Virus record (IMG/VR): IMGVR_UViG_3300037993_000667
Span: 1 to 42,898 of that record
Source: a virus
Length of the DNA stretch: 42,898 bases
Strand: one strand, 5' to 3'
This document shows positions 2,500 to 29,798 of this stretch, piece after piece. Numbering within the stretch: position 1 is the stretch's first letter; the number at the start of each line of letters is the position of its first letter. Position numbers and translations under genes: made by a program. Below the pieces are notes generated by a model. It was given only the letters and a program-made list of their open reading frames with translations. It ran no database searches and had not been told where the DNA came from.

Positions 2500-2774
2500 A
2501 GATCCGCGTGATGACCACCGCCGACAAGGGGCATAAGAAGGCGCCGACGATGCAGGAGGCTGCCGGCATGCCGGTCCGCGTAACCAGCTTCAGCGCAGCA
2601 ACGCCTTCCTCGAAGACGGAAGCCCTGGTGATTCTTACCGGCGGCAGCATCCGCTCGATCGTCTGCCGCCCGGGAGAGTGCGACCTGTACCTCTCCCCAT
2701 GGGCAACGTTTCAGCTGATTGCACCCGAGCCGGTCATCGATCCGGAGAAGACGACGGAGGTGCAGCGTGGCTGA
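2496..2774 (+). CDS. hypothetical protein
   Basis: A 92-residue protein with no recognised domain; its middle has alternating hydrophobic residues typical of beta strands (LVILTGGSIRSIVC). It ends in EVQRG because its last codons carry the GGAGGTGCAGC ribosome binding site used by the DUF5131 gene, whose GTG start lies inside this gene (8-base overlap). The DUF5131 protein ends in the same residues for the same reason. Confidence 0.6.
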   Translation: MKIRVMTTADKGHKKAPTMQEAAGMPVRVTSFSAATPSSKTEALVILTGGSIRSIVCRPGECDLYLSPWATFQLIAPEPVIDPEKTTEVQRG

Positions 2775-3705
2775 CACGGCGATCGAGTGGACCGAAAAAG
2801 TTTGGAACCCGGTGACCGGCTGCACCAAGGTTTCCGAGGGCTGCCGCAACTGCTACGCCGAGCGCTATTTTCAGCGACCATACCCGGGCCGCAAATTCAC
2901 CGACATCGTTTGCCACAAAGATCGGCTCGATGCCCCGCTCCACTGGCGCAAGCCGGCGCGCATCTTTGTCAACTCGATGGGCGACCTCTTTCACGAGAGC
3001 GTGCCGGATGTGTTCATCGCCCGCGTAATCTCTCAGGCTGGTGCGGCGAGGCGGCACACATTTCAAATTCTGACGAAACGCCCACAGCGCATGCTCGACT
3101 TCTTTTCGCGCTGTAGGGCCGATGGTCTCGGATGGATTACCCACAACGGCGCCGAGATAGAGGGCTATGGCGGCGATGGCATAGCAGTTGGCAATAAGGA
3201 GCGGTGGCCGACCCCTAATATCTGGCTCGGCGTCTCGGTCGAGAACCAGGCGACCGTCGCCGAGCGCATTCCGCTGCTGTTGCAAACCCCGGCGGCGCTG
3301 CGCTGGGTGAGCGCGGAACCTTTGTTGGGACCGCTAAATATTGCCGTGTATCTTGGCGGTGACGTCGATCCGAGCGATGAAAACCGCGAGGATCCCGGCA
3401 TCGATTGGGTTGTCTGCGGCGGCGAGAGCGGGCCGCGCGCGCGGCCGATGAGCCCCGATTGGGCGCGCTCGCTGCGCGATCAGTGCCAAGCGGCGCATGT
3501 GCCTTTCTTCTTCAAGCAGTGGGGCGAATGGCTTCGCGCTGACTGCGGATTTCCGGTCCACGTGAGCCGGTTGCAGGAATCCAAATTCGTTGTCTTCGAC
3601 ATCGATGGCGAGCAAGAGATATATGCCCGCGTCGGCAAGCGGGCTGCTGGGCGCCTGCTCGACGGGCGCGAGTGGAACGAATATCCGGAGGTGCAGCGTG
3701 GCTGA
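2767..3705 (+). CDS. phage Gp37/Gp68 family protein (DUF5131)
   Basis: This 312-residue protein matches the phage Gp37/Gp68 (DUF5131) family: IEWTEKVWNPVTGC near the N-terminus, Cys19/Cys26/Cys29 in a Cx6CxxC pattern, a central TKRPQRM segment, RWVSAEPLLGPL, DWVVCGGESG and FFFKQWGEW near the end. The family's three-Cys motif looks able to hold an Fe-S cluster and has been compared to radical-SAM enzymes, but its reaction is not established. GTG 2767 is chosen because GGAGGTG stands at correct distance; the longer reading frame upstream lies in the preceding gene. It is commonly found in phage early accessory regions. Confidence 0.9.
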   Translation: MADTAIEWTEKVWNPVTGCTKVSEGCRNCYAERYFQRPYPGRKFTDIVCHKDRLDAPLHWRKPARIFVNSMGDLFHESVPDVFIARVISQAGAARRHTFQILTKRPQRMLDFFSRCRADGLGWITHNGAEIEGYGGDGIAVGNKERWPTPNIWLGVSVENQATVAERIPLLLQTPAALRWVSAEPLLGPLNIAVYLGGDVDPSDENREDPGIDWVVCGGESGPRARPMSPDWARSLRDQCQAAHVPFFFKQWGEWLRADCGFPVHVSRLQESKFVVFDIDGEQEIYARVGKRAAGRLLDGREWNEYPEVQRG

Positions 3706-4838: not shown

Positions 4839-5149
4839 AAAAGCAAGAACTCTACAGGCAGGGAGACGTGCTGATTCGGCGTATTGACGGCCTGCCGAAG
4901 CAAAAGGCCGTAAAGAGAGCGAGTGGAACGATCCTCGAGGGCGAAGCCACCGGCCACGTCCACCGCATCGCGGAGCTGACTCAGGCCGAGGTGCTGGAAA
5001 TCCAAGACGGAGTGTATCTGCGCGTTGGCGAAAAAGGCGTGCGCATCATCCACGAAGAGCACGCGCCGATCACGCTGCCGCCCGGCGAATATGAGGTGAT
5101 TCGCCAGCGCGAGTACTCACCCGAGGAGATCCGCAATGTCGCGGACTGA
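4835..5149 (+). CDS. conserved phage hypothetical protein
   Basis: This 104-residue protein begins at a GTG. The order LYRQGDVLIRRIDGLP, EGEATGHVHRI, EVLEIQDGVYLRV, IIHEEHAPITLPPGEYEV and IRQREYSPEE...VAD is that of a small all-beta family found widely in phages and cyanobacteria, whose function I do not know. The GHVHR and HEEH histidines are candidate metal ligands and are the best preserved part of the family as I remember it. It overlaps the DUF6745 gene by 14 bases. Confidence 0.75.
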   Translation: MKKQELYRQGDVLIRRIDGLPKQKAVKRASGTILEGEATGHVHRIAELTQAEVLEIQDGVYLRVGEKGVRIIHEEHAPITLPPGEYEVIRQREYSPEEIRNVAD

Positions 5150-6731
5150 GAGGACTTCAAAGGTAGCGCTGCAGCGCTTCACCGAGGCCTGCAGCTACCC
5201 TGGCACGATCGACGAGTCCGCAGTCGATCGCCAATTACGCCGGTACCTGCAGGCCCTCGGAATTAAGCGCGACGTTCGTCGACTTCAGCGTGGTTGGCGG
5301 TTGGACCGCGAGCCTGCGCTGCAGAAGTACGTTGACGGGGTGCTCGCCGAGTTTACGAGGCGAGCACCCAAAACCGCGCGGGATGCGCGGGATGCGCTGG
5401 ATGCGCTGGCTGCGCGGGATGCGCTGGCTGCGCGGGATGCGCGGGATGCGCGGGATGCGCTGGATGCGCTGGATGCGCGGGATGCGCGGGATGCGCTGGA
5501 TGCGCTGGCTGCGCGGGATGCGCTGGCTGCGCGGGCTGCGCGGGATGCGCTGGATGCGCGGGCTGCGCTGGATGCGCGGGCTGCGCGGGCTGCGCGGGAT
5601 GCGCGGGATGCGCTGGATGCGCGGGCTGCGCTGGATGCGCGGGCTGCGCTGGATGCGCGGGCTGCGCGGGATGCGCTGGATGCGCTGGATGCGCGGGCTG
5701 CGCTGGCTGCGCGGGCTGCGCGGGCTGCGCTGGATGCGCGGGATGCGCGGGATGCGCGGGCTGCGCTGGCTGCGCGGGCTGCGCTGGATGCGCGGGCTGC
5801 GCTGGATGCGCGGGCTGCGCGGGCTGCGCTGGATGCGCGGGATGCGCGGGCTGCGCGGGATGCGCTGGATGCGCTGGCTGCGCGGGCTGCGCTGGATGCG
5901 CGGGCTGCGCGGGCTGCGCTGGCTGCGCGGGATGCGCTGGATGCGCGGGCTGCGCTGGATGCGCGGGATGCGCTGGCTGCGCGGGCTGCGCTGGATGCGC
6001 GGGCTGCGCGGGCTGCGCTGGATGCGCGGGATGCGCGGGCTGCGCGGGCTGCGCTTCAACGCTTCGCTGCCTGGTGTGTCGGCTCGACCTGGTGGCGCTG
6101 GTGGGGATTTGAGCTTTCGTGGGTGGCTACTTCTCATATCGGTGCGCTCCAGCTCGCCAATACCGCGCTCCAATCATGGACGGAGCCGCTGTTTGAGGCA
6201 TTTATTGCCGGCGCCTGGATGCTGCACTGGACCGAAGATGCCGTTTACTGGATTGCCAAGCCGGCGGTCCATGTTGAGCGTGTAGCGGACCGTCGACGTC
6301 TCCACAATTCGTCAGGTCCGGCGCTCGATTCCGATCTTGAGCCTCTCTACTTCTGGCACGGAGTGATGGTCGACGATTATGTTGTCGAGCGGCCTGAGCT
6401 CATCACCGTCGAGCAGATCCGCAACGAACGCAACGTAGAGGTCCGCCGCGTCCTGCTCGAGCGCTACACGTTCCCGCGGTACATCCAGGACACCGGCGCG
6501 CAGAAGATCCACGAGGATGAGTTCGGCGAACTCTACCGCGCGGAGCTCGAGGGCGACGAGCCGATCGTCATGGTCCGGGTGTTGAATTCGACCCTCGAAG
6601 AGGATGGCTCGCGCAAGCCGTATTTTCTGCGCGTGCCGCCGACGGTCGCTAAGGCGCGCGATGCCGTCGCGTGGACGTTCGGGTATGACGACAGCGCCGC
6701 ATACATGAAGGCGCTGGTTCAGCAGACGTAA
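5136..6731 (+). CDS. DUF6745-like protein with 75-unit tripeptide array
   Basis: A 531-residue protein from ATG 5136 (GAGGAG upstream). Residues 1-80 are a charged helical leader. Residues 81-305 are 75 tandem tripeptides Ala-(Arg/Leu)-(Asp/Ala). Residues 306-531 carry a DUF6745-like end: [82 protein letters not shown] and AVAWTFGYD. The family is of unknown function and is found in actinobacteria, acidobacteria and phages. The Ala-rich array would form a long helix or coiled rod joining the two parts. The array also keeps other frames open by composition; those are not genes. Confidence 0.85.
5376..6050 (+). repeat. 75-copy tandem array of the 9-mer GCG-CKG-GMT
   Basis: From 5376 every nine bases read GCGC(G/T)GG(A/C)T without exception for 75 units, ending where GCGCTT follows. 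Only base 5 (G/T) and base 8 (A/C) vary, giving four unit types: I count about 20 Ala-Arg-Asp, 21 Ala-Leu-Asp, 25 Ala-Arg-Ala and 9 Ala-Leu-Ala. Not one synonymous difference is seen. Units 1-6 recur at 12-17 and units 47-53 recur at 68-74, so segmental duplication of 99 and 189 bases is visible. The first 17 units contain no Ala-Arg-Ala. Confidence 0.95.
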
Positions 6732-16987: not shown

Positions 16988-17446
16988 ATGGCACGACCGC
17001 GCACCCCAACATCGCAACTCGAAGCGTCCGGAGCCTTTGATCACGATCCGCAGCGCCGCGCCGCGCGCGAGAACGAACCGGTTCCCTCTGGTCCCCTCGG
17101 CGATCCTCCAGCGCACCTGACGCGCGTGCAGCAGGTTGTATGGCGCGAGCTCGCAGCACAGGTTCCCGCCGGCGTGTTGACCATTGCCGATCGCATGTTG
17201 GTGGAAATCTATTGCAGCCTTGTGGCTCGTCATCGCGGCGGCGATCCCGGCCCCGACGAAGAACCGAATCCGCCGGAAGTTCTCAAGTCCGGCGAGTACA
17301 ACCTGATCATTTCTATTTTGTCTCGCATGGGCTTGACGCCGAGTGATCGCAGCCGCGTAGATGCTCCCACGGATCCCAAACGACGCGCGAAGGATACCTT
17401 TGCGCAGCTAGCTTCGACTCCACGTGGCTCCCACGTCAAGCAGTGA
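16988..17446 (+). CDS. phage terminase small subunit, P27 family
   Basis: A 152-residue protein from ATG 16988. GPLGDPPAHLTRVQQVVWRELAAQVPAGVLTIADRMLVEIYCSLVAR and YNLIISILSRMGLTPSDRSRV are typical of P27-type small terminases, which recognise phage DNA and recruit the large subunit for packaging. The segment PEEPNPPEVL in the middle is a loop. The 3' end overlaps the large-subunit gene by 23 bases. Confidence 0.9.
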   Translation: MARPRTPTSQLEASGAFDHDPQRRAARENEPVPSGPLGDPPAHLTRVQQVVWRELAAQVPAGVLTIADRMLVEIYCSLVARHRGGDPGPDEEPNPPEVLKSGEYNLIISILSRMGLTPSDRSRVDAPTDPKRRAKDTFAQLASTPRGSHVKQ

Positions 17447-19160
17447 GCGCGATTACCTCGCCATCGCGAGCAGCTATGCGCGCGACGTCATCAGCGGCAA
17501 GATTCCGGCGTGCAAGCAGGTCGTTCAGGCCTGCAAAAGGCACTTTAAGGACTTGCAGCGCTCGGCCGCGGCGGTCTCCCAGGCGGATCCAAAGTTCGAG
17601 TTTTATCTCGATGCGGATTCTGCCGTACGGGTGTGCCAGTTTTTGGAGGCGCTCCCGCACGTCAAGGGCAAGTGGGCGCTCAAAAAAGAGATGCTGCGCC
17701 TCGATCCCTGGCAGGTGTTCATTTTTGTTTCGCTCTTCGGGTGGGTCGAGCGCGCGGATCCAACCAGGTATCGTTTCCGCGAGGCGTATATCTGCGTTCC
17801 CCGCAAGAACGGCAAGTCATTCAAGGCGGCCGGTACCGGGCTTTATAAGTTTGCGGCCGACGGGGAGTACTGCAGCGAAGTTTATTTTGGCGCGACCAGC
17901 GAGGAGCAGGCCAAGCGCGTCGGCTTCAAACCGGCGCGGGCCATGGCCGTGAAGTCTCCGGCACTGTGCAAGGCTTTCGGCATCAAGGTCAACGTCCACA
18001 ACCTGGTCAGGCTCGAGGACGGATCGATTCTCAAGCCTGTCATAGCGCGTCCGGGGGATGGCGACTCGCCGAGCTGCGCCATCATCGACGAGTATCACGA
18101 GCATCCGACCCCCGAGCTTTACGACACTATGAAGACGGGCATGGGCGCGCGTGAGAATCCGCTCCTGCTCGTCATCACCACCGCCGGCAGCAATCGCGGC
18201 GGTCCCTGTTTTCTGTTGCAGAAGGACGTTGAGGCCATCCTTGCCGGCACCATCGTCAACGAGCGGCTCTTTGGCATCATCTACACCATCGACCCCGAAG
18301 ACGATTGGACGTCGGATGCCGCACTCGTCAAGGCCAATCCCAATTTTGGAATATCGATCGATCCTGAGTTTTTGCGCAACGAGCAGCACGCCGCGCGGCA
18401 GTCGGCGCGAAAGCAGAACATTTTCAAAACCAAGTACCTAAACATCTGGGTCAACGCTGCCGTCGCCTGGATGAACATGGAGAAGTGGAAGGCGCTCTCC
18501 GATCCGGCCCTTCTGCTCGAGCAGTTTGCCGGCGAGCCGTGTCTCATTGCGCTCGACCTGGCGAGCGAGATAGATATTGCTTCCAAGGTGTATCTTTTCT
18601 CGCGCGAGCTACAAGAAAAGCAGCATTTTTATTGCTTCTGCAAGCATTACCTCAATCAGCAAGCTATTGAGGAAGGCCGCGGAGAACACTATGCCGCGTG
18701 GGCGGAAGATGGTTGGCTGACCGCTACGCCGGGCAACGTAACCGATTATCCGATGATCTGCGACGACCTAATCGACGACTCCGAAAAGCACTTAGTGAGG
18801 GAAGTCCCTCACGATCCTTATCACGGCGCGCCGCTCGTACAGTTCGTACAAAAGGATCCGCGCTGGGATCAGTCCATCGAGTTCGTCAAGATCACGCAGA
18901 ACGTCCAAAACCTTTCGCCGGCGATGAAGCAGCTCGAGGCGCTCGTTCTGGACGGGCGCCTGCACCATGACGGGGATCCCGTGCTCGAGTGGATGATCTC
19001 CAACGTGGTTGCTCGGACGATTTCCAAAGACAACATCGTGCCGGACAAAGAGAGCCCTGAGCGCAAGATTGATGCCGCGGTGGCGCTGCTGATGGATATC
19101 TCGCGGGCCTCGACGCTCAATGTCTCCGCGCAGAGTCTGCCGGCCGTTTCCATCTTATGA
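17424..19160 (+). CDS. phage terminase large subunit
   Basis: A 578-residue protein from GTG 17424, within the end of the small subunit gene. ATPase motifs: PRKNGKS (residues 126-132) as Walker A, CAIIDEYHEH (218-227) as Walker B, and TTAGSN (252-257) as motif III. The nuclease half begins near LIALDLASEIDIAS (Asp of the RuvC-like site) and continues to DAAVALLMD. This is the Terminase_1/YmfN-like type that cuts and pumps DNA into the prohead through the portal. Length is usual for the family. Confidence 0.95.
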   Translation: MAPTSSSERDYLAIASSYARDVISGKIPACKQVVQACKRHFKDLQRSAAAVSQADPKFEFYLDADSAVRVCQFLEALPHVKGKWALKKEMLRLDPWQVFIFVSLFGWVERADPTRYRFREAYICVPRKNGKSFKAAGTGLYKFAADGEYCSEVYFGATSEEQAKRVGFKPARAMAVKSPALCKAFGIKVNVHNLVRLEDGSILKPVIARPGDGDSPSCAIIDEYHEHPTPELYDTMKTGMGARENPLLLVITTAGSNRGGPCFLLQKDVEAILAGTIVNERLFGIIYTIDPEDDWTSDAALVKANPNFGISIDPEFLRNEQHAARQSARKQNIFKTKYLNIWVNAAVAWMNMEKWKALSDPALLLEQFAGEPCLIALDLASEIDIASKVYLFSRELQEKQHFYCFCKHYLNQQAIEEGRGEHYAAWAEDGWLTATPGNVTDYPMICDDLIDDSEKHLVREVPHDPYHGAPLVQFVQKDPRWDQSIEFVKITQNVQNLSPAMKQLEALVLDGRLHHDGDPVLEWMISNVVARTISKDNIVPDKESPERKIDAAVALLMDISRASTLNVSAQSLPAVSIL

Positions 19161-19381
19161 GCGAACAAAAACCTGACGCACCGCCGCCCGAGCGATCCAC
19201 TTTGCCCAATGTGCTGCTCGTTGCCGGAGCCGCCGCCATTATCGTCGGCATCGCCATGTTCAAGCTCGGCGCAGGTGTCATTGCCCTGGGAGTATTTCTC
19301 GTTCTTGGAGCCCTCGCCTCGACCGCTGGGAAGTCCCAAGCAGCGCAACTAGACAAACTAAAGAAATCCCTTAACCAGTGA
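19157..19381 (+). CDS. small two-helix membrane protein
   Basis: A 74-residue protein from ATG 19157 (ATGA overlap with terminase). Residues 17-57 hold two hydrophobic helices joined by a short turn (LLVAGAAAIIVGIAMFKLGA, IALGVFLVLGALAS), with a basic coiled tail. It lies between the terminase and portal genes and overlaps both by four bases. A membrane protein here is unusual; it could be a holin-like or host-exclusion protein, but no family is recognised. Confidence 0.7.
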   Translation: MSEQKPDAPPPERSTLPNVLLVAGAAAIIVGIAMFKLGAGVIALGVFLVLGALASTAGKSQAAQLDKLKKSLNQ

Positions 19382-21051
19382 ACCTCATCAGCTCGCTCGT
19401 CAGCAACATTCGCGCCCTCACCATGGAAGACCCGGCGCAACCGCTGCAGCCCTACAGCGTGTTGATGGATATGCTCGGCATGACCATCACCGACAGCGGC
19501 CTGCTGGTCAACGAGAAGACAGCGCTTCGCCAGACCACGGTGCTGCGCTGCGTCCTGGCAATCTCCCAGGGACTTTCCTCGCTCCCTCTCGTGGTCTATC
19601 AGCGCGACGGCAAGCGCAAGCGGCCGGCAGCCGATCACCGGCTCTACCCGCTGCTGCACGACGAGCCGAATAAGCAGATGTCGTCCATCGTCATGCGGGA
19701 AGGGCTTGAGGCGCAGCGCCAGTTGTGGGGCAACTCCTACTCTGGGCTGCAACGTGACAAGGCCGGGCGAGTCGTGGCCCTCTGGCCGCTGCCCTCGGAC
19801 CGCACCAATCCCGAGCGCGTTAACGGAGAGCTGCGCTACGTCACCACCGCCACGCCCAACGGCGCGCAACGCTACATCCAGCCAAAGGACATGCTGCACA
19901 TTCCGGGGTTGGCCTTCGATGGCATCACCGGCATCTCGCCCATCGGCCTCGCCAAGCAGACGGTGGGCCGCGCCCTCGCCATGGAGCGTTTCGGGGCGCA
20001 GTTCTTCGGCAACGGTATCCGCCCGAGCGGCGCCTTTGTCATCCCGGGCTCGCTCAAGCCCGAGCAGAAAGACAACCTTCGCCAGACGTTGCAGTCCGCC
20101 ACGAGCGGGGCCAACGCCCAGCGGCCGCTGCTGCTGGAAAACGGCTTAGAGTGGAAACCGTTTTCGATTAATCCCGACGAGGCGCAGTTCGTCGACGCGA
20201 TGAAGTTCAGCGTCTCGGAGATAGCGCGCATTTTTGGCGTGCCGTTGCATCTGGTGCAGGATCTCGAGCGGGCTACCAATAACAACATTGAGCAGCAGGC
20301 GCTCGAATTCATCATGTATCGCCTCCGGCCCGATGCGGTTCGCACTGAGCAGGAACTCAACCGCAAGCTCTTTCTTGGGAGCGATTTTTTCTGTGAACAC
20401 TCGATGTCGGCGCTGCTGCGCGGCGACTTCAAGACGCGCATGGAAGGCTACGCCACTCTGTTTCAGACCGGGGCGCTCTCGCCCAATATGGTCTGCGAGC
20501 TCGAGGATTGGAACCCCATCCCGGCCAAAGAGGGTGGAGATCTGCGCTTCGTGCCCATGAACATGATTCCCCTGGTCGGAGTGCAGCAAGGCCTCAGCGA
20601 GCAGGTTACTCCCTCCGGGACGGACGGTGGCGGAAGTGGCACCCCTGACGACCCGAACGATCCAGATGAGGGCGGTGACAACGACCAGGGCACGGGCGGC
20701 AATAGAGACCCAAACGGCGCCATTCGCCGCGAGCGCGTCTTCACCGGCTGCCGGCACATCTTTCGCGATGCGGTTCAGCGCACCATCAGCCGCGCGCGGC
20801 GGGACAAAGAGACTGTTACGAAGATCTGGCAGCCAGTTGTGGGTGTTGCCGCACAGATGGTGGCCCTTTGCTTGGCAGGTGTAGCCAAGCTGCCGCAGGC
20901 TGCACAGCAGTTCAGCGACGGCTACGCGGGCCATATTTGGACTCGCGCCCAAGCCTGGAAGTTGGAAAAAGCTGTGGATATCACGGAAAACGAGTTGGCG
21001 AGTGCTTATGAGGCCCTTTGTGAGCATGTGCTCGCCGGAGGAAATAGATGA
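19378..21051 (+). CDS. phage portal protein, HK97 family
   Basis: A 557-residue protein from GTG 19378. TTVLRCVLAISQGLSSLPLVVYQR, LWGNSYSGLQRDKAGRVVALWPL, MLHIPG, GVPLHLVQDLERATNNNIEQQALEF and MEGYATLFQTGALSPNMVCELEDWNPIP are diagnostic of HK97 gp3-like portals, the dodecameric head vertex through which DNA passes. After residue ~415 there is an added Gly/Asp/Pro-rich linker (GGxxTPDDPNDPDEGGDNDQG) and about 110 more helical residues, beyond the usual portal core. Confidence 0.95.
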   Translation: MNLISSLVSNIRALTMEDPAQPLQPYSVLMDMLGMTITDSGLLVNEKTALRQTTVLRCVLAISQGLSSLPLVVYQRDGKRKRPAADHRLYPLLHDEPNKQMSSIVMREGLEAQRQLWGNSYSGLQRDKAGRVVALWPLPSDRTNPERVNGELRYVTTATPNGAQRYIQPKDMLHIPGLAFDGITGISPIGLAKQTVGRALAMERFGAQFFGNGIRPSGAFVIPGSLKPEQKDNLRQTLQSATSGANAQRPLLLENGLEWKPFSINPDEAQFVDAMKFSVSEIARIFGVPLHLVQDLERATNNNIEQQALEFIMYRLRPDAVRTEQELNRKLFLGSDFFCEHSMSALLRGDFKTRMEGYATLFQTGALSPNMVCELEDWNPIPAKEGGDLRFVPMNMIPLVGVQQGLSEQVTPSGTDGGGSGTPDDPNDPDEGGDNDQGTGGNRDPNGAIRRERVFTGCRHIFRDAVQRTISRARRDKETVTKIWQPVVGVAAQMVALCLAGVAKLPQAAQQFSDGYAGHIWTRAQAWKLEKAVDITENELASAYEALCEHVLAGGNR

Positions 21052-21527
21052 AGGGTGATCCGAAAGTCATGGCCGGCCTGCAGGAGTCCATCGACCTCGA
21101 ATTGTCGCTGTGCCTGCAATACATGCTCGACTGGCGCAACGTGAAACGCTGCGGCCTCAGCATCAAGAAGGGGCTCTATAAACTTCACGAGCAGTCGGAG
21201 AAGCACGCGCAAAGCCTCATTAGTCGGCTGCTATTTCTCGATGGTGTCCCGCTCTCCGCTCCGGCTCAAGCTAAAACACATATCGATATTGGCGACATCC
21301 TCTCGGACGCCACCGCGGCCGAGATGGCTATTGTCGCGCGTTATGCCGAGCTCGCCCGCCAGGCCTTTGACGCCGGCGATATGTCGAACTTTCATCTCTA
21401 TCAGCACCTCGCAAAGTGGCACCGCGAGGGCGACAAGAAGTTCATCGGGCATCTCGCCTGGCTGCAAAAGCAGAACTGGCAGTTGAAAGAATTCGGCGAG
21501 ACAGATTATGAAGAAGTGAAGGCCTGA
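21048..21527 (+). CDS. bacterioferritin-like protein
   Basis: A 159-residue protein with the length and layout of bacterioferritin. It starts MKGDPKV and has LxxxIDLELSLCLQYMLDWR, LHEQSEKHAQSLISRLLFLDGVP, IGDILSDATAAEMAIVARY and a last helix with HLAWLQKQ. Compared from memory with E. coli Bfr, Glu18 and Tyr25 are kept. The ExxH pair reads S-E-K-H (Ser for Glu51, Glu for heme Met52, if one residue is gapped), Glu94 is kept, and the second ExxH looks like D-K-K-F. So the fold is kept but the di-iron site seems incomplete. It is coupled to the portal gene by ATGA. Its role in the virion or assembly is unknown. Confidence 0.8.
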   Translation: MKGDPKVMAGLQESIDLELSLCLQYMLDWRNVKRCGLSIKKGLYKLHEQSEKHAQSLISRLLFLDGVPLSAPAQAKTHIDIGDILSDATAAEMAIVARYAELARQAFDAGDMSNFHLYQHLAKWHREGDKKFIGHLAWLQKQNWQLKEFGETDYEEVKA

Positions 21528-21557
21528 CCACCCAAATCCAACGAAACGGAAGCCATC

Positions 21558-22814
21558 ATGTCACTACTGAGTCCGCAGAGTGCTGCAAAGCCGAAGCCCA
21601 TCTTCGCCGCCGCCAAAAAGGCGAACGTGCTCGAGCTGTGCGTCTATAACGAGATTGGCCAGAACTGGTGCTGCGACGACGGGGTCACTCCCGCCTCCGT
21701 GCAACAGGCGCTCAAAGACGCCGGCAAGGTCGACTCCATCACCGTGCGCATCAACTCGCCGGGCGGCGCTTCGTTCGTCGGCGTCGCCATCCACAACATT
21801 CTTCGTCAGCAGGGCGTCCCGGTCAGCGTCATCGTTGAGGGCATCGCCGCGTCGGCAGCCTTCACCGTTGCCATGGCCGGCGACACGATACAAGTATGCG
21901 ACGGCGCCATGATGATGCTGCACAACGCCTGGTCCTGTGCGGTGGGCGATGCTAACGCGATGCGTGAGATGGCCGACCTTCTCGACAAGGTCAGCGGCAC
22001 CATGCGCGACCTCTATGCCAAGCGCTCCGGGCTTTCCGCGGGCGAAGTTTCCGCGCTCATGGATGACACTACCTGGCTCACCCCGCAAGAGGCTGTTGAA
22101 AAGGGCTTTGCCACTGCGCTCCTCAAAACCACTCCCGAAAAAGCCAACGAGGCCAAGGCTCTGGCCGCGCAGTTCGATCTTGCCAGGTTCTACGGCAAGA
22201 TTCCTGAGCGCGTCAAGCAGGCAATCGCTGTGCCTCCCGGACCTCCTGGAACTGAAGATGATGCCCAGGTCCCTCCGGGTCCTCCGGGCACTGAAGAGGC
22301 CGAGTACGGCATGGTCGATTGCGCCTGCGATTGCTCCAGTTGCAAGCAGGGCGACTGCAGCCATTGCTCAAACGAAGACTGCGACGACGACAACTGCGTG
22401 CACGAGGGAGAGACCGACGCAAAAGCCCGGGCGCGGGCTGCGCGGATAGCCACCGCAACAAAAAAAGACACCAAGCGCGTCGATAAGAAAGACCTGCCGA
22501 AGAGCTGCTTTGCCTACAGGCCCGACGACAAGAAGGAAAACTGGAAGCTTCCCATCGAGTCTCCCGATCACGACAAAGAGTGGGAGGCCAACCATATCCG
22601 CAACGCCATCTCGCGCTGGGGCCAGACTGACATGCCGGACAAAGCCGAAAAAGACAAGGCGCGCGATCGCATCAAGGCTGCGGCCAAGGCCCACGACATC
22701 ACCGTCGACGAAGACAGCCTGAAAGATAGCGCCGCGCAGCCGGACATCCGGGCGCGCCGCCTGCGCCTGGCCGAACTCGAAGCCGGCCCAAATATTTCTC
22801 AGTCGGTCCAGTAG
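21558..22814 (+). CDS. ClpP-type head maturation protease with C-terminal modules
   Basis: A 418-residue protein from ATG 21558. Residues 25-200 are the ClpP-like domain: INSPGG (65-70), GIAASAAF with catalytic Ser99, MMMLHNAW with His122, and WLTPQEAVEKGFA. Then follow two copies of VPPGPPGTE (225-246), a Cys cluster of eight cysteines in residues 255-280 (CACDC, CSHC, CDDDNC), a basic linker, and a DUF6582-like end (LPKSCFAYRPDD, HIRNAISRWGQTDMPDKA, RIKAAAKAHDI). It cuts scaffold and itself during capsid maturation; the C-terminal parts may serve as scaffold. Confidence 0.9.
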   Translation: MSLLSPQSAAKPKPIFAAAKKANVLELCVYNEIGQNWCCDDGVTPASVQQALKDAGKVDSITVRINSPGGASFVGVAIHNILRQQGVPVSVIVEGIAASAAFTVAMAGDTIQVCDGAMMMLHNAWSCAVGDANAMREMADLLDKVSGTMRDLYAKRSGLSAGEVSALMDDTTWLTPQEAVEKGFATALLKTTPEKANEAKALAAQFDLARFYGKIPERVKQAIAVPPGPPGTEDDAQVPPGPPGTEEAEYGMVDCACDCSSCKQGDCSHCSNEDCDDDNCVHEGETDAKARARAARIATATKKDTKRVDKKDLPKSCFAYRPDDKKENWKLPIESPDHDKEWEANHIRNAISRWGQTDMPDKAEKDKARDRIKAAAKAHDITVDEDSLKDSAAQPDIRARRLRLAELEAGPNISQSVQ

Positions 22815-23030: not shown

Positions 23031-24311
23031 ATGAAACTCGCAGAATTGGTTGAGCAGCGCAACGTCGCTGTCAAAGAGATGCGCTCTTATCTGGAGAAGG
23101 GCGACACCGTCAAATTCGACGAAATCGACGCCAAGGTAGTCGAGCTCGACAAGCAGATAGCGGCGCTCAAAAAGCTGGAAGACGCCGAGAAAGTCCAGGC
23201 TGCCTTTGCCGACACCAGGCAGCCGCCCATGAGTAACATCGCTCCCCACCTGGTGGACGGAGGCCGCAATGAGGAATGGCAGAAGACCTACTCCAAGGTC
23301 TTCTCCAAATATCTCCGCGGAAATATCTCTTCGCTCTCGCCCGAAGAGCAGCAGATCATGCTGGGCACCTGGCGCGATGCTGGTGGCACCCAGATCCGCG
23401 CGGCCCAGACGGAAAGCACCACGGGCGGCGGCTACATCATCCCGCAGGGGTTCAGCGGCCAACTCGAAGAGGCCATGAAGTGGTACGGCGGGATCGACGG
23501 CATCGTCGACTCCTTCGAGACCGACACCGGCAATCCGCTGCCCTGGCCGACGATCAACGACACCACCAACAAGGGACGCATCCTTGGCCTCAACACCCAG
23601 GTCACCGAAACCGATCTGGTCTTCGGACAAATCATGTTCGGAGCGTTCACCTTCTGCTCCGATTCCATCCTCATCCCCATCCAGTTGATGCGCGACTCCT
23701 ATTTCGACCTGGATAAGGAAGTAGCCAAGCTGCTCGGCATCCGCCTCGGCCGCTTGTTCAACAACAAATTCACCGTCGGCGCCGGCACCACCGAGCCTTT
23801 GGGCATTGTCACCGCCGCTCTGAATGCTCCCGGCGGAGGCCTCACCTACACCACGGCCTCCGGTCAGACGTCGACCATCATCGGCGATGATCTGATCAAC
23901 CTGGAGCACACGGTCGACCCGGCCTATCGTCCGGGAGGCCGCTATATGCTGGCCGATTCCACCCTGAAGGCCATCAAGAAGTTGAAGGATAGCTATGGGC
24001 GTTACCTGTGGCTTCCCGGCCTGGCCGCCAACGATCCCAACACGATCAATGGCTACAAATACGTCATCAACCAGGACATGGCGGCGCTCGGAACCAGCGG
24101 CTCTCCGGTGACTGGCAATGCCTTCCTGCTGTTCGGCGACATGAGCAAATACAAAGTCCGCCGGGTAGCCGGAGACACCACCGTCATGCGGCTCACCGAG
24201 CGCTATGCCGATTACCTGCAGGTCGGCTATCAAGCCTTCCTGCGCGCCGACGCGCAGCTGCTCGATGCCGGCACGCACCCGATCGCCGTGGCTGTGCAGG
24301 CAACGTCGTAG
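23031..24311 (+). CDS. major capsid protein, HK97 family
   Basis: A 426-residue protein from ATG 23031. The first ~65 residues are the coiled-coil delta domain (LVEQRNVAVKEMRSYLEKGD, ELDKQIAALKKLED), normally removed by the head protease. The body has TTGGGYIIPQGFSGQLEEAMKWYGGI (N-arm/E-loop region), DSILIPIQLMRDSYFDLDKEVAKLLGIRLGRLFNNKFTVG (spine helix) and MRLTERYADYLQVGYQAFLRADAQLLD (P-domain end). It assembles the icosahedral shell. Confidence 0.97.
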   Translation: MKLAELVEQRNVAVKEMRSYLEKGDTVKFDEIDAKVVELDKQIAALKKLEDAEKVQAAFADTRQPPMSNIAPHLVDGGRNEEWQKTYSKVFSKYLRGNISSLSPEEQQIMLGTWRDAGGTQIRAAQTESTTGGGYIIPQGFSGQLEEAMKWYGGIDGIVDSFETDTGNPLPWPTINDTTNKGRILGLNTQVTETDLVFGQIMFGAFTFCSDSILIPIQLMRDSYFDLDKEVAKLLGIRLGRLFNNKFTVGAGTTEPLGIVTAALNAPGGGLTYTTASGQTSTIIGDDLINLEHTVDPAYRPGGRYMLADSTLKAIKKLKDSYGRYLWLPGLAANDPNTINGYKYVINQDMAALGTSGSPVTGNAFLLFGDMSKYKVRRVAGDTTVMRLTERYADYLQVGYQAFLRADAQLLDAGTHPIAVAVQATS

Positions 24312-25672: not shown

Positions 25673-26440
25673 ATGAAAAGGCTCATCGACTGGATCGTCC
25701 TCATTCCGGTACTCGGCGCCGCCCTGCTTCTGCCGGCGCGGTTGCCCGCGGCCACAAAAGAGTGCCCCAATATTCCGCTGCCTCAAGTCGAGGCGCAGAC
25801 CGAGAAGATCTGCGAGACGGCCTACGTTTCGCTCTACGACGCTGTGTTGCACTCGCCGCGCCTGGTTGCTTATGAGTTGACGGCCAAGCACACCCTGGGA
25901 TGCCTGCCGCGTAAGGCCAATTTTCACAGTGAGGGTCCGAGTGCCAAAGCGAGCGAATACCTCGACAGCGGCTATGACCTCGGGCACATGATGAGCGCCG
26001 AAGACGCCAGCTGGCGTGACGATGTTTCTTACGATTCCTTTTCCATGGTCAACGTCGCGCCCCAGCTTGGCGGCCTCAATCGCCAGCAATGGGCGCGGCT
26101 GGAAGAGTCCGTCCGGGCCTGGGCCTGGTCACGCGGGGATCTCATCGTCTACGTCGGCCCCATATTTTCAGACAAACCGAAACACCTCGGCAAAGACGTC
26201 GCTGTTCCAAGCGCATTCTTCAAAGTCCTGGTCGACAAAAAGAGCGGAGAGGTCCTTGCCTTCGAGATGCCGCAAAAACCGATCAACAAAGGCGACCTGG
26301 CGCCATGGATCACGGCGCTCCAGGTCATCGAGAGCGAAGCCGGCATAAAGTTTCCCGGCAGGCAGGCAAGCGACAACGCCCTCTGGCCGCTCGACCTCTC
26401 CGGCTGGCGAAAAGCCCACAAGGAGGCCTGCGGAAAATGA
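25673..26440 (+). CDS. secreted DNA/RNA non-specific endonuclease (NucA-like)
   Basis: A 255-residue protein from ATG 25673. Residues 1-27 form a signal peptide (IDWIVLIPVLGAALLLPARLPAA). The nuclease part has YDLGHMMSAEDA (residues 101-112), the DRGH motif with Leu for Arg and catalytic His105 retained, and NVAPQLGGLNRQQWARLEE with metal-binding Asn136 and Glu144. VYVGPIF and VPSAFFKVLVD complete the beta-beta-alpha-metal nuclease pattern. It would be exported and degrade nucleic acid outside the cytoplasm. It lies amid head-tail genes, at the start of the glycosyltransferase cassette. Confidence 0.85.
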   Translation: MKRLIDWIVLIPVLGAALLLPARLPAATKECPNIPLPQVEAQTEKICETAYVSLYDAVLHSPRLVAYELTAKHTLGCLPRKANFHSEGPSAKASEYLDSGYDLGHMMSAEDASWRDDVSYDSFSMVNVAPQLGGLNRQQWARLEESVRAWAWSRGDLIVYVGPIFSDKPKHLGKDVAVPSAFFKVLVDKKSGEVLAFEMPQKPINKGDLAPWITALQVIESEAGIKFPGRQASDNALWPLDLSGWRKAHKEACGK

Positions 26441-26697
26441 CGCTTTATCGATCGGATACCTGCCTGGGGGCAAAGCGGCTCAAGATATTTCTCGTGTCCT
26501 GGGAGCTGCTTCGGCAGATGTTCACCCCGGGCGAGCATGCCGAGCATTACCGGGTGCTGAGCGCCGCAGTTCCCGCAGACGCCCAGTGCGAGTCCGTTTG
26601 CGAATCGCGCGATTATCCCGGCCTGCTGGAGATCACCATTTCGAGCGCTACCTTTCCCGAAGTGCGCCAAGGTCCGATGCTGGGCGGAAACATCTAG
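26437..26697 (+). CDS. small conserved phage protein
   Basis: An 86-residue protein from ATG 26437, with AAGGAGG seven bases upstream and an ATGA overlap. The middle LKIFLVSWELLRQMFTPGEH..HYRVLSAAVPADAQ is a pattern I recall from environmental phage hypothetical proteins, without known function. Its TAG stop shares its last base with the GTG start of the first glycosyltransferase, so the two are coupled. Confidence 0.65.
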   Translation: MTLYRSDTCLGAKRLKIFLVSWELLRQMFTPGEHAEHYRVLSAAVPADAQCESVCESRDYPGLLEITISSATFPEVRQGPMLGGNI

Positions 26698-27359
26698 TGC
26701 TCGTCTCCTGCATCATGCCCACCCACAACCGGCGCGAGATGGTGCCGATTGCCCTGCGCTCCTATCTCGCGCAGGACTGGCCGGAAAAAGAGCTGGTCGT
26801 CGTCGATGACGGCCCCGATGTGCTCTGGGACCTCTTTGCCGGGCGCCCAGGTGTGCACTACGTCAGGCTCGCCGGACGCCGTCGCATTGGTGCCAAGCGC
26901 AATTTGGCATGCCAAGTGGCACTTGGCGAAGTTATAGTCCATTTCGACTCCGACGACTGGAGCGCTTCAGGCAGGATCCGCGACCAAATCGAGCGCCTGC
27001 TCGCTTCCGGCAAGGCGGTCAGCGGTTATCATTCCGGGCTCTTTTACGACCCAGCAAGACGCGAGGCCAGCAAGTATATCTGGGACGGCCATCCGGACCA
27101 CTACTCACTGGGGACTGCTCTCTGCTACCGCCGGGACTTTTGGCGGCGCAACCAGTTCACCAACTCCGACATGCAGGAAGACAACGACTTCGTCGACGCG
27201 GCAAAGGCCGCTCGGCAGCTTGTGTCGGTCGACGGCGGCCAGTTCATCGTTGCCCGCATCCATGCCGGCAACACCTGCAATCATGTGCCGCTGCGCTGGC
27301 CCGTGGTGCCGATCGAGGAGATTCCGGACGCCTTCCTGGAGGCCTGTGGCGCGTATTAA
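26697..27359 (+). CDS. glycosyltransferase family 2-like (GT-A)
   Basis: A 220-residue protein from GTG 26697. It has the GT-A start VSCIMPTHNRREMVPIALRSYLAQDW, ELVVVDDGPD, RIGAKRNLACQVALGEVIVHFDSDDW (DxD-type nucleotide-sugar/metal site), and a late HAGNTCNH segment. It transfers an activated sugar; donor and acceptor cannot be read. It is the first of four glycosyltransferase genes placed between the connector and head-closure genes. A longer frame start at 26586 falls inside the previous gene and lacks a ribosome binding site. Confidence 0.85.
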   Translation: MLVSCIMPTHNRREMVPIALRSYLAQDWPEKELVVVDDGPDVLWDLFAGRPGVHYVRLAGRRRIGAKRNLACQVALGEVIVHFDSDDWSASGRIRDQIERLLASGKAVSGYHSGLFYDPARREASKYIWDGHPDHYSLGTALCYRRDFWRRNQFTNSDMQEDNDFVDAAKAARQLVSVDGGQFIVARIHAGNTCNHVPLRWPVVPIEEIPDAFLEACGAY

Positions 27360-28263
27360 CGTCTGCACTAACCTCACCAACGGAGTCGGGCTGCAGCGGG
27401 ATTACGAGATGCTGCGCGCGGAGCTGGAAAAGCGCGGCTACGAAGTCAACGGCATCATGTGGAACGCCAAGGAGGCGCCGCGCGCGGACCTGAATATCTT
27501 TATTGAGCTCCTGAACCTTGGCATATTCCAGCGTGCTCCTCGCCAGTGGGCGATCCCGAATCCCGAGTGGTGGTTCGCCGGGTGGGACGTTAATCTGCCA
27601 CAGATCGAGTCAGTCCTTTGTAAGACCCACGACTGCGAGCGAATCTTTCGCGGCAAAGGACCGAAGACCCGATATATCGGCTGGCAGGCGCGCGATCTGT
27701 ACCGCCCGGAAATCCAGCGCGAACGCAAAGTTCTGCACCTGGCCGGAAAGTCACATGCCAAGAACACCGAGGCCGTCGTCGAATGTTGGCGGAGGTACTC
27801 GCCAGAGATAGACCTCACCGTCGTGTCAGAGCATTTTGTGGGCGTCGGCTCGAGAACGAGTTCATATCGGCGCGTCACCGAAGAGCAACTGACGTTGTTT
27901 CTGAACTCGCACCTGTTTCACCTTTTGCCATCAGCCTACGAAGGCTACGGCCACGCCATTCACGAGGCGCAGGCGGTCGGGGCGATCCTGATGACCACCG
28001 ACGCCGCCCCGATGGACGAAGCCGGCGCTCCGGTGCGTCTTCCCTCCTGTCGCAGAAGGAATGCTAACCATGCGCCCTACTTCGATGTGAGCCCGGAGGC
28101 TATCCGAGATGGTATTGAGCGCGCGCTTGCCATGAGCGAAGAGGAAATCAGGTTAGCGAGCGAGGCGGCCAGGGCGAAGTACGAGGCTGATTGCGCGGAG
28201 TTCCAAGCGTCACTGAATGAATTGTTCGGCAAAGCGATTGAGCTAAGGGCAGCGACGGCATGA
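27346..28263 (+). CDS. glycosyltransferase, GT-B fold (GT4-like)
   Basis: A 305-residue protein from GTG 27346 with GGAGG four bases upstream; it overlaps the preceding gene by 14 bases. NVCTNLTNGVGLQRDYEMLRAELEKRGYEV is a GT-B N-terminal Rossmann half, KVLHLAGKSHAKNTEAVVECW starts the second half, and HLLPSAYEGYGHAIHEAQAVGAILMTTDAAPMDE is the sugar-nucleotide site with the EGxGxxxxEA pattern. Predicted cytoplasmic. Acceptor unknown. Confidence 0.85.
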   Translation: MARINVCTNLTNGVGLQRDYEMLRAELEKRGYEVNGIMWNAKEAPRADLNIFIELLNLGIFQRAPRQWAIPNPEWWFAGWDVNLPQIESVLCKTHDCERIFRGKGPKTRYIGWQARDLYRPEIQRERKVLHLAGKSHAKNTEAVVECWRRYSPEIDLTVVSEHFVGVGSRTSSYRRVTEEQLTLFLNSHLFHLLPSAYEGYGHAIHEAQAVGAILMTTDAAPMDEAGAPVRLPSCRRRNANHAPYFDVSPEAIRDGIERALAMSEEEIRLASEAARAKYEADCAEFQASLNELFGKAIELRAATA

Positions 28264-28940
28264 ACCACGGCGAGATCGTAGTCTCCATGGCCGCGAGCCG
28301 GTCCGCTGGGCTGATGCGAACCTATGTCGAGCAGTTGGTTAATGCCGGCGTTGCCGTGAATATCGAGCCGATGCCGAAAGAATGGGCCAATAACAATCTT
28401 GGCGACCTCGGTCAGCGGGTAGCCTCGCAGCGGCGCACTCTCGAGCACCTTTCCGGATTCAACAAGATCATCATCGCGGATGCCTGGGACGTTTTATTCT
28501 ACGGGCTCCGGGAGGAGTTGGTGGCGAAAGTGCCCGACCGCGGCGTGCTGTTTTCCGCTGAGCGCGTCTGCTGGCCGGAACCGGAACTATCGTTCGGCTT
28601 TCCCGACACTGGCAACGCCTGGCGCTACGTCAACGCTGGCCTCATGGCTGGCACGCATCGCGCGATGTCCGAGTGGCTTGAATGCTTGGTTGCGAGCCTT
28701 CCGGAACACGGCAGCTTTGTAGACCAGCGTTTACTGAACAGGCTTCGCTCCGAGAACAGCCCGCTTGCTCCCATCGACAGCCAGACGAAGTTGTTCTACA
28801 CGATGACGCAGGAACACGGCGAGCTGGAGAGGCGCGACGGACGACCGTTCAACAGGGTGAGCGGCCAATATCCGAACTTCATTCACTTCTGCGCGAAGAC
28901 AGATCCGGCCCCGTTCCTGGAGATGATGAAAAAGTCGTGA
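28260..28940 (+). CDS. PLOD/procollagen-glycosyltransferase-like enzyme
   Basis: A 226-residue protein from ATG 28260 (ATGA overlap). FNKIIIADAWDVLFYG, EELVAKVP, VLFSAERVCWPE and NAWRYVNAGLMAGTHRAM match the conserved core of the glycosyltransferase domain of procollagen lysyl hydroxylase/galactosyl- and glucosyltransferases (DxxD...FSAE..CWP...yxNxGxxxG), a domain also seen in giant viruses and some phages. FVDQRLL and FIHFCAK fit later parts. Donor and acceptor are unknown. In this phage, collagen-like Gly-X-Y repeats occur in the tail fibre and the head protease. Confidence 0.8.
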   Translation: MNHGEIVVSMAASRSAGLMRTYVEQLVNAGVAVNIEPMPKEWANNNLGDLGQRVASQRRTLEHLSGFNKIIIADAWDVLFYGLREELVAKVPDRGVLFSAERVCWPEPELSFGFPDTGNAWRYVNAGLMAGTHRAMSEWLECLVASLPEHGSFVDQRLLNRLRSENSPLAPIDSQTKLFYTMTQEHGELERRDGRPFNRVSGQYPNFIHFCAKTDPAPFLEMMKKS

Positions 28941-28964
28941 CGCTCACCAGAAGGTGACAGACAA

Positions 28965-29798
28965 ATGAAGCCCGACATCGTAGTGGTGCCGACCTTTTCC
29001 CGGCCCGAGTATCTCTGGCTCTGCCTCGAAAGAATCGCCGCGTGCCCTGAGAGCCGAATGCTCGACATCTGCGTGTACGTCGACAACCACGAGAACCGGG
29101 TGCCCGCTCCGAAAGACGAGATCGAAAGAGTAACGACGAAATGTCCAGGCCTCTCGATCTACCTTCTGACTCGCGCTCCGCACAGATTTATCGGCAACAG
29201 CTTCAATGTCCTCGAGGCCTACAGAGAGGCCTACGGCACGGGCTGTGAATACGTCTTCCAGGTAGAAGACGACGTCATGGTCACGCCCGATTTCTTCACT
29301 TGGCATTATCGCGTGCAGAGGTCCGGAAGATGGTTTTGCTCAGTCGGCTGCAAGAGCCCGAGAGTCCCGCCGCCTGAAGGCGCGGACGACTTCTACGGCA
29401 CCGTGGATTTCTGCTCCTATGGGGTCTGCTTCCCGCGAAACGCCCTCGCGACAGTCATCCAGCACGCGCGCCCGGAGTACTACGGCAACATGGACGGCTA
29501 TATCGGGAGCAACTTTCCCGATCTCGGCTTCGCTGGGCGATTCACCGAGCAGGACGGCCTTATACATCGCCTGGTGAAGATGAGCGGACTACCTTCGGCA
29601 TGGCCAGTTAAACCGCGCTCATGCCATTGCGGCTACTATGGCTATCACCGCGGCAAGGGACTCAGGCCGGAAGGCACTCTCGAACAGCGCTACGAGCAGG
29701 TAAAGAAGATTATCGCGAGCGCCGACGAACTTCGTCGCAACTCCCGCGATTACGACGACCTCGAAGCCCTAGACGATGAAATCATTGCAGGCCGATAG
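28965..29798 (+). CDS. glycosyltransferase, GT-A type (GNT-I-like)
   Basis: A 277-residue protein from ATG 28965, with AGAAGGTG upstream. DIVVVPTFSRPEYLWLCLERI and ICVYVDNHENRV start the domain, NSFNVLEAYREAYGTGCEYVFQVEDDVMVTPDFF contains the ExDD metal site typical of GNT-I-like or GT2 enzymes, and FTEQDGLIHRLVK follows. It is the fourth glycosyltransferase of the cassette, not similar to the other three, so the group could build a branched or multi-sugar modification. Target unknown; virion proteins or host surface are the likely options. Confidence 0.8.
   Translation: MKPDIVVVPTFSRPEYLWLCLERIAACPESRMLDICVYVDNHENRVPAPKDEIERVTTKCPGLSIYLLTRAPHRFIGNSFNVLEAYREAYGTGCEYVFQVEDDVMVTPDFFTWHYRVQRSGRWFCSVGCKSPRVPPPEGADDFYGTVDFCSYGVCFPRNALATVIQHARPEYYGNMDGYIGSNFPDLGFAGRFTEQDGLIHRLVKMSGLPSAWPVKPRSCHCGYYGYHRGKGLRPEGTLEQRYEQVKKIIASADELRRNSRDYDDLEALDDEIIAGR

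Follow-up and report, generated by a model that had tools for sequence, protein, structure and literature searches.

The DNA analyzed here (the window), a 42,898-base virus record, carries a head module on the plus strand. The module includes the terminase small subunit TerS (16988-17446; phrog_83, 1.5e-22), the terminase large subunit TerL (17424-19160; phrog_9, 9.4e-156), an open reading frame for a 74-aa hydrophobic protein (19157-19381), an HK97-type portal protein (19378-21051; phrog_12, 1.4e-113; PF04860, 4.3e-99), a ClpP-like head-maturation protease (21558-22814; phrog_94, 2.4e-57; PF00574, 4.1e-23), and an HK97-fold major capsid protein (MCP; 23031-24311; phrog_10, 1.8e-59; PF05065, 1.4e-49). 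The portal and the protease form the upstream and downstream edges of a slot filled by the gene studied here, which runs from an ATG at 21048 to a TGA ending at 21527 and encodes a 159-aa ferritin-like protein, P0001, with the N terminus MKGDPKVM. The portal TGA is shared with the ferritin ATG in an ATGA at 21048-21051, and a GGAGG lies upstream, inside the end of the portal gene, as part of a ribosome-binding site (ggaggaa; site and overlap together at 21027-21051). With these signals, the two genes are predicted to be translationally coupled. The preliminary description of this DNA had placed a ferritin-like reading frame inside the head operon, coupled to the portal and ahead of the head protease, and it was right on all three points. 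A chimeric assembly can be ruled out because L001, a separately assembled contig, has the identical gene order, with 5 mismatches across 9,878 nt. Elsewhere in the window, the head-tail module encodes a DNA/RNA non-specific endonuclease with a signal-peptide-like N terminus (25673-26440; PF01223, 4e-33) and a run of four glycosyltransferase-like genes between the head-tail adaptor and tail completion genes (26586-29798), possibly for virion glycosylation; the early region encodes a DUF5131 protein (2719-3705; PF07505, 4.4e-94) and a DUF6745 domain protein (5136-6731; 6.5e-41).

Profile searches and modeling agree that P0001 has a fold derived from bacterioferritin (Bfr). The Pfam Ferritin family matches P0001 at 4.7e-12 (PF00210; 46.5 bits against a gathering cut-off of 24.5), and Bfr is the PDB match both of P0001 (2.2e-9) and of a family profile built from 44 relatives (1.3e-13). 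The AlphaFold2 (AF2) monomer, with a pLDDT of 93.4, has helices at residues 5-34, 40-63, 81-108, 112-126, 135-149, and 151-154, and corresponds to a Bfr-type four-helix bundle of about 158 aa; the top 50 Foldseek matches to this model are all Bfr or Ftn, the best at TM 0.88-0.89 and 1.3-1.5 A. The most divergent relative modeled, L027, is also predicted to adopt the Bfr/Ftn fold (monomer pLDDT 87). The profile search and structure prediction that had been proposed as checks therefore find ferritin similarity far above chance and a Bfr fold, in keeping with the Bfr length and order noted at the outset. The suggestion of a Dps-like packaging aid, on the other hand, is not sustained, as all strong sequence and structure matches are to Bfr or Ftn; with the family profile, Dps chains score 5e-4 or weaker against 1.3e-13 for Bfr, and Dps is missing from the Foldseek top 50. 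P0001 is 20-28% identical to solved Bfrs and scores 41.9 bits against TIGR00754 (bfr), below the equivalog cut-off of 125.6. Among phage resources, PHROGs gave no credible family for P0001 (best match, 0.036), INPHARED phage records gave weak matches only, mostly to host-type bfr genes in Salmonella and Acinetobacter records, and the BFVD structure library gave weak matches only to the P0001 fold. The latter include three long uncultured-phage proteins (A0A6J7WIS1, A0A6J7WVS4, and A0A6J5N5R9), one named a prohead protease and the others a Dps or Ferritin/DPS domain, which are possibly ferritin-domain fusions to head proteins.

The di-iron ligands of Bfr are E18, E51, H54, E94, E127, and H130, among which E51 and E127 are the bridging pair (PMC2777505); in E. 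coli Bfr, the B-type channel through which iron enters is lined by D132, E135, and D139, and D118 is a three-fold channel residue (PMC4319037). Across 45 non-redundant members of the phage ferritin family, E18 is retained in 41 and H54 in 33, and the equivalents of E94 (Glu92) and H130 (His135) are present in every member. The E51 position is occupied by Cys (39 members), Ser (4), or Ala (2) and never by Glu, the window having Ser50 where most members carry Cys, and the residue at the E127 position is not Glu in any of the 45. The assignment of this second position depends on a 7-residue insertion that the phage members have in helix D relative to Bfr. Because the alignment to host Bfr is free of gaps through helix C and into the middle of helix D, and because AF2 extends this first half-helix to residue 126 in P0001 (to 124 in L027, just past the equivalent His), residue 125, a His in 45/45 members, should sit at the E127 position and probably occupies it. 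When sequence alone is aligned, the insertion falls earlier and E127 lines up with residue 132, which is mostly Phe; under either placement, the Glu is lost. The haem position M52 is never Met in the 45 members (Glu51 in the window), D50 is Gln in all, and the B-channel residues D132, E135, and D139 are replaced by mostly Ala, by Gln in every member, and by an aromatic residue in every member, respectively; D118 has become His116 in 44/45 members, and position 122 is His120 throughout. The acidobacterial MAGs in which the phage gene occurs also encode host Bfrs, and these retain the ferroxidase and haem ligands. With both bridging Glu residues and the haem-ligating Met52 gone, the phage family is, on its residue pattern, not a working Bfr. 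Most of what had been read by eye stands, namely the retention of Glu18 and Glu94 (Glu92 here), Ser in place of Glu51, and no Met at the haem position; the claimed loss of the second ExxH is correct for its Glu but not for its His, which is kept as His135 after the insertion. The invariant or near-invariant His116, His120, His125, and His135, together with Glu92, suggest a rebuilt metal site, in which the pocket geometry of Glu92, His125, and His135 is derived from the helix boundaries of the model.

The preliminary description had called for a search for the portal-ferritin-protease order in other phages, and this order was found to recur: viral-contig scans recovered about 70 distinct relatives, 48-67% identical and almost without exception on viral contigs. 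Phage members form one clade apart from host Bfrs (support 100/100), within which the window groups, weakly and on a long branch, among the lambda-type members (support 80/90). All relatives except the window and L001 have a lambda-type head module, with a GpA-type TerL, a lambda-type portal (PF05136), and a fused protease-capsid protein (PF25209/phrog_4523). The order portal, ferritin, protease-capsid is seen at 65 loci, the remainder being cut by a contig end or a remnant. No similarity was detected between any head gene of the window and the lambda-type loci, nor was a portal C terminus common to both head modules seen, so that, as far as sequence comparison can tell, one gene slot between portal and protease is shared by two unrelated head modules. 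The dN/dS ratio of the ferritin gene (0.117, as compared with 0.077 for the portal and 0.151 for the protease-capsid gene) indicates purifying selection. In open-licence papers, we found no description of these phage ferritins, nor of any ferritin gene located between those for portal and protease. As for hosts, a search of genome contigs returned only a Bryobacterales MAG, whose contig L088 carries the lambda-type arrangement with the ferritin, and one prophage remnant on an Acidobacteria MAG chromosome (L089:8001-8500), in which ferritin residues 39-159 and the start of the protease-capsid gene persist; among 396 sampled genomes of the phylum of the Bryobacterales MAG, the phage ferritin gene occurred in that MAG only. 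These two cases suggest that the lambda-type group infects Acidobacteriota, the host of the window itself being a separate matter, and the soil phages carrying the ferritin cassette probably infect Acidobacteria.

The gene is present at this junction in some phages and absent from it in their relatives, as would be expected of a moron or other accessory gene. For example, the portal, protease, and MCP of L153 are 65, 54, and 75% identical to those of the window, but in L153 the protease gene begins within the stop of the portal gene, and no ferritin is encoded anywhere on the 57-kb contig. L153 also has a 62-aa counterpart of the hydrophobic protein encoded before the portal and two tandem GT2 copies where the window has the glycosyltransferase-like run. 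Among the 80 lambda-type loci closest by portal, a sample biased by having been drawn with gene-bearing queries, 10 lack the ferritin, with portals 82-88% identical. In four of these (L214:3790-4160, L215:1730-2080, L217:3610-3985, and L218:3160-3535), the protease-capsid reading frame opens with the initial ferritin codons (MKGNPDVITGLEE), joined in frame to the protease-capsid protein through a Thr/Ala-rich linker; these fusions are deletion scars. The protease-capsid proteins of L186 and L199, which start MNPQVTAG and MNPQVIAG, probably record a second deletion event, which gives at least four and probably six scars in all among the 10 ferritin-less loci. The cultured phages PY223 and RcDormio, which have related portals, likewise carry the portal directly beside the protease-capsid fusion with no gene between. 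The other side of the junction also bears a mark. In nearly all ferritin-bearing lambda-type phages, the gene after the ferritin starts M[PSA]LL, a start found in none of 246 other ORFs there. The window protease starts MSLLS, with ATGTCACTACT identical to L026 and L096, and that of L153 starts MKQHAIKR. The 30-nt intergenic stretch and first protease codons of the window (ATG TCA CTA CTG AGT; 21528-21572) thus probably mark where a cassette acquired from a lambda-type phage ends on its 3' side, and the transfer would then have run from lambda-type phages to the window. From these comparisons, the ferritin gene is best described as an accessory cassette of a single gene, inserted where portal and protease meet; it is dispensable because close relatives do without it.

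Because the same slot is filled in two unrelated head types, the phage ferritin probably serves the head or late infection and not iron storage; the recurrence of the slot favors a link to the head, and the residue pattern is more in line with a rebuilt metal site than with storage of iron. The explanation that we consider best, and hold tentatively, is a head-linked metal-binding accessory protein. P0001 would be a phage-specific descendant of Bfr, carried as a one-gene cassette, that still forms a ferritin-like oligomer and binds a transition metal at the rebuilt Glu92-His125-His135 pocket (plus Cys/Ser50) instead of a di-iron center, with perhaps a second metal place at His116 and His120, which would face the three-fold axis. 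Since its translation goes with that of the portal and immediately precedes that of the protease, it would be made at head-assembly time and may act on or inside the procapsid or virion as a metal-binding passenger that aids particle or genome survival, storing no iron for the cell; it is the oligomer, the metal binding, the virion association, and the head-time role that we infer here. A more specific version, which we regard as rather unlikely, makes the domesticated Bfr a virion component in both head types. In this version, the protein, as a cage or a smaller assembly stripped of di-iron chemistry but provided with a His/Glu metal pocket and a His-lined three-fold axis, would assemble together with the portal and end up inside the procapsid, a natural phage counterpart of encapsulin-ferritin cargo loading. 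Operon position is insufficient for virion association because the late operon also has a secreted nuclease and glycosyltransferases. The earlier idea of a structural protein reusing the fold divides in two: since the gene is missing from close relatives, a constitutive part of the structure is unlikely; the fold may be reused in or near the virion, and an accessory or moron role is likewise possible.

The main rival to the head-linked reading is a late moron that acts in the host cell, sequestering metal or blunting metal or oxidative stress during lysis or lysogeny and taking only its promoter from the head operon. This is possible, if less probable, in our view. Its accessory distribution and the company of other probable morons in the module (the endonuclease and the four glycosyltransferase-like genes) are what such a gene would show, and gut phages (Gratiaviridae) do carry Dps and Mn-catalase as oxidative-stress genes (PMC8008677), but two unrelated modules place the gene in one and the same slot, and in the window it is coupled to the portal, both of which speak against a purely cellular moron, and standard Bfr/Dps detoxification is unlikely because the catalytic carboxylates and most iron-entry residues are lost. 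That loss bears equally on the iron-storage moron considered in the preliminary description, which finds no support in a family that has lost its ferroxidase bridging ligands throughout, along with most of the acidic path for iron entry. A functional bacterioferritin taken up as an iron-storage auxiliary metabolic gene, which the Pfam Ferritin and Bfr matches and the Bfr fold might have suggested, is the least probable reading of all, given the TIGR00754 score and the replacement of E51 and E127 in all members and of D50, D132, E135, D139, and M52. It is also improbable that the protein enters mixed cages with host bacterioferritin as a dominant-negative or modifying subunit and alters host iron release. 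Bfr/Ftn hetero-oligomers exist (PMC12120770), the PDB entries 9iig, 9h1u, and 9bts are among the best matches, and the host MAGs encode canonical Bfrs; the low identity to solved Bfrs and the missing haem Met count against such mixing, which would also leave the linkage to the head-gene slot unexplained. Finally, the position, the translational coupling, and a constraint similar to that on the capsid gene could all be taken as signs of an essential head structural or assembly protein such as a connector, scaffold, or portal adaptor. The natural absences in L153, in the ten lambda-type phages, and in PY223 and RcDormio largely refute this reading and make it very improbable.

The clade has no annotated PHROG function, and it combines a dismantled iron-oxidizing center with four His and one Glu that are invariant or nearly so. 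The recurrent slot, the presence/absence pairs, and the deletion scars make a head-linked function directly testable. A virion location would make the protein a metal-binding passenger of phage capsids, comparable to the cargo of encapsulins. Otherwise, it would still be a new metal protein, expressed late by soil phages whose probable hosts are the poorly studied Acidobacteriota.

Compared with bacterioferritin (e.g. PDB 1bcf, 9iig, and 4am2), the phage protein shares the chain length, the four-helix bundle with a short helix E, the MKGxPKV start, the closely superimposable predicted fold, and the equivalents of Glu18, Tyr25, Glu94, and His130, but it differs in lacking the bridging Glu and the haem Met, in having mostly replaced iron-entry residues, a helix D insertion, and a new invariant His, and in being encoded in a head operon. 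In encapsulin systems, a ferritin-like cargo protein is encoded next to the gene for an HK97-fold shell, whereas the present gene lies in a complete phage head module, where neither a shell of the encapsulin type nor a targeting peptide was identified. Genes of the ferritin superfamily are already known in phages, including Dps, Mn-catalase, and the ferritin-like protein of Sajous1. The phage Dps and ferritin stress genes, that of Lactobacillus phage Dps among them, resemble the present family in bringing this superfamily into phage genomes; they belong, however, to a different subfamily, reached by weak structural hits only, and are described as oxidative-stress enzymes with no fixed portal/protease slot. 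The gp217 protein of Sajous1/Vi01-like phages is likewise ferritin-like (assigned by Phyre2 only), but it is encoded near a tail gene, and a gp217 peptide has been detected by virion mass spectrometry, although a proposed Ferrojan-horse role was unsupported by TonB/FeoB mutants (PMC10892097).
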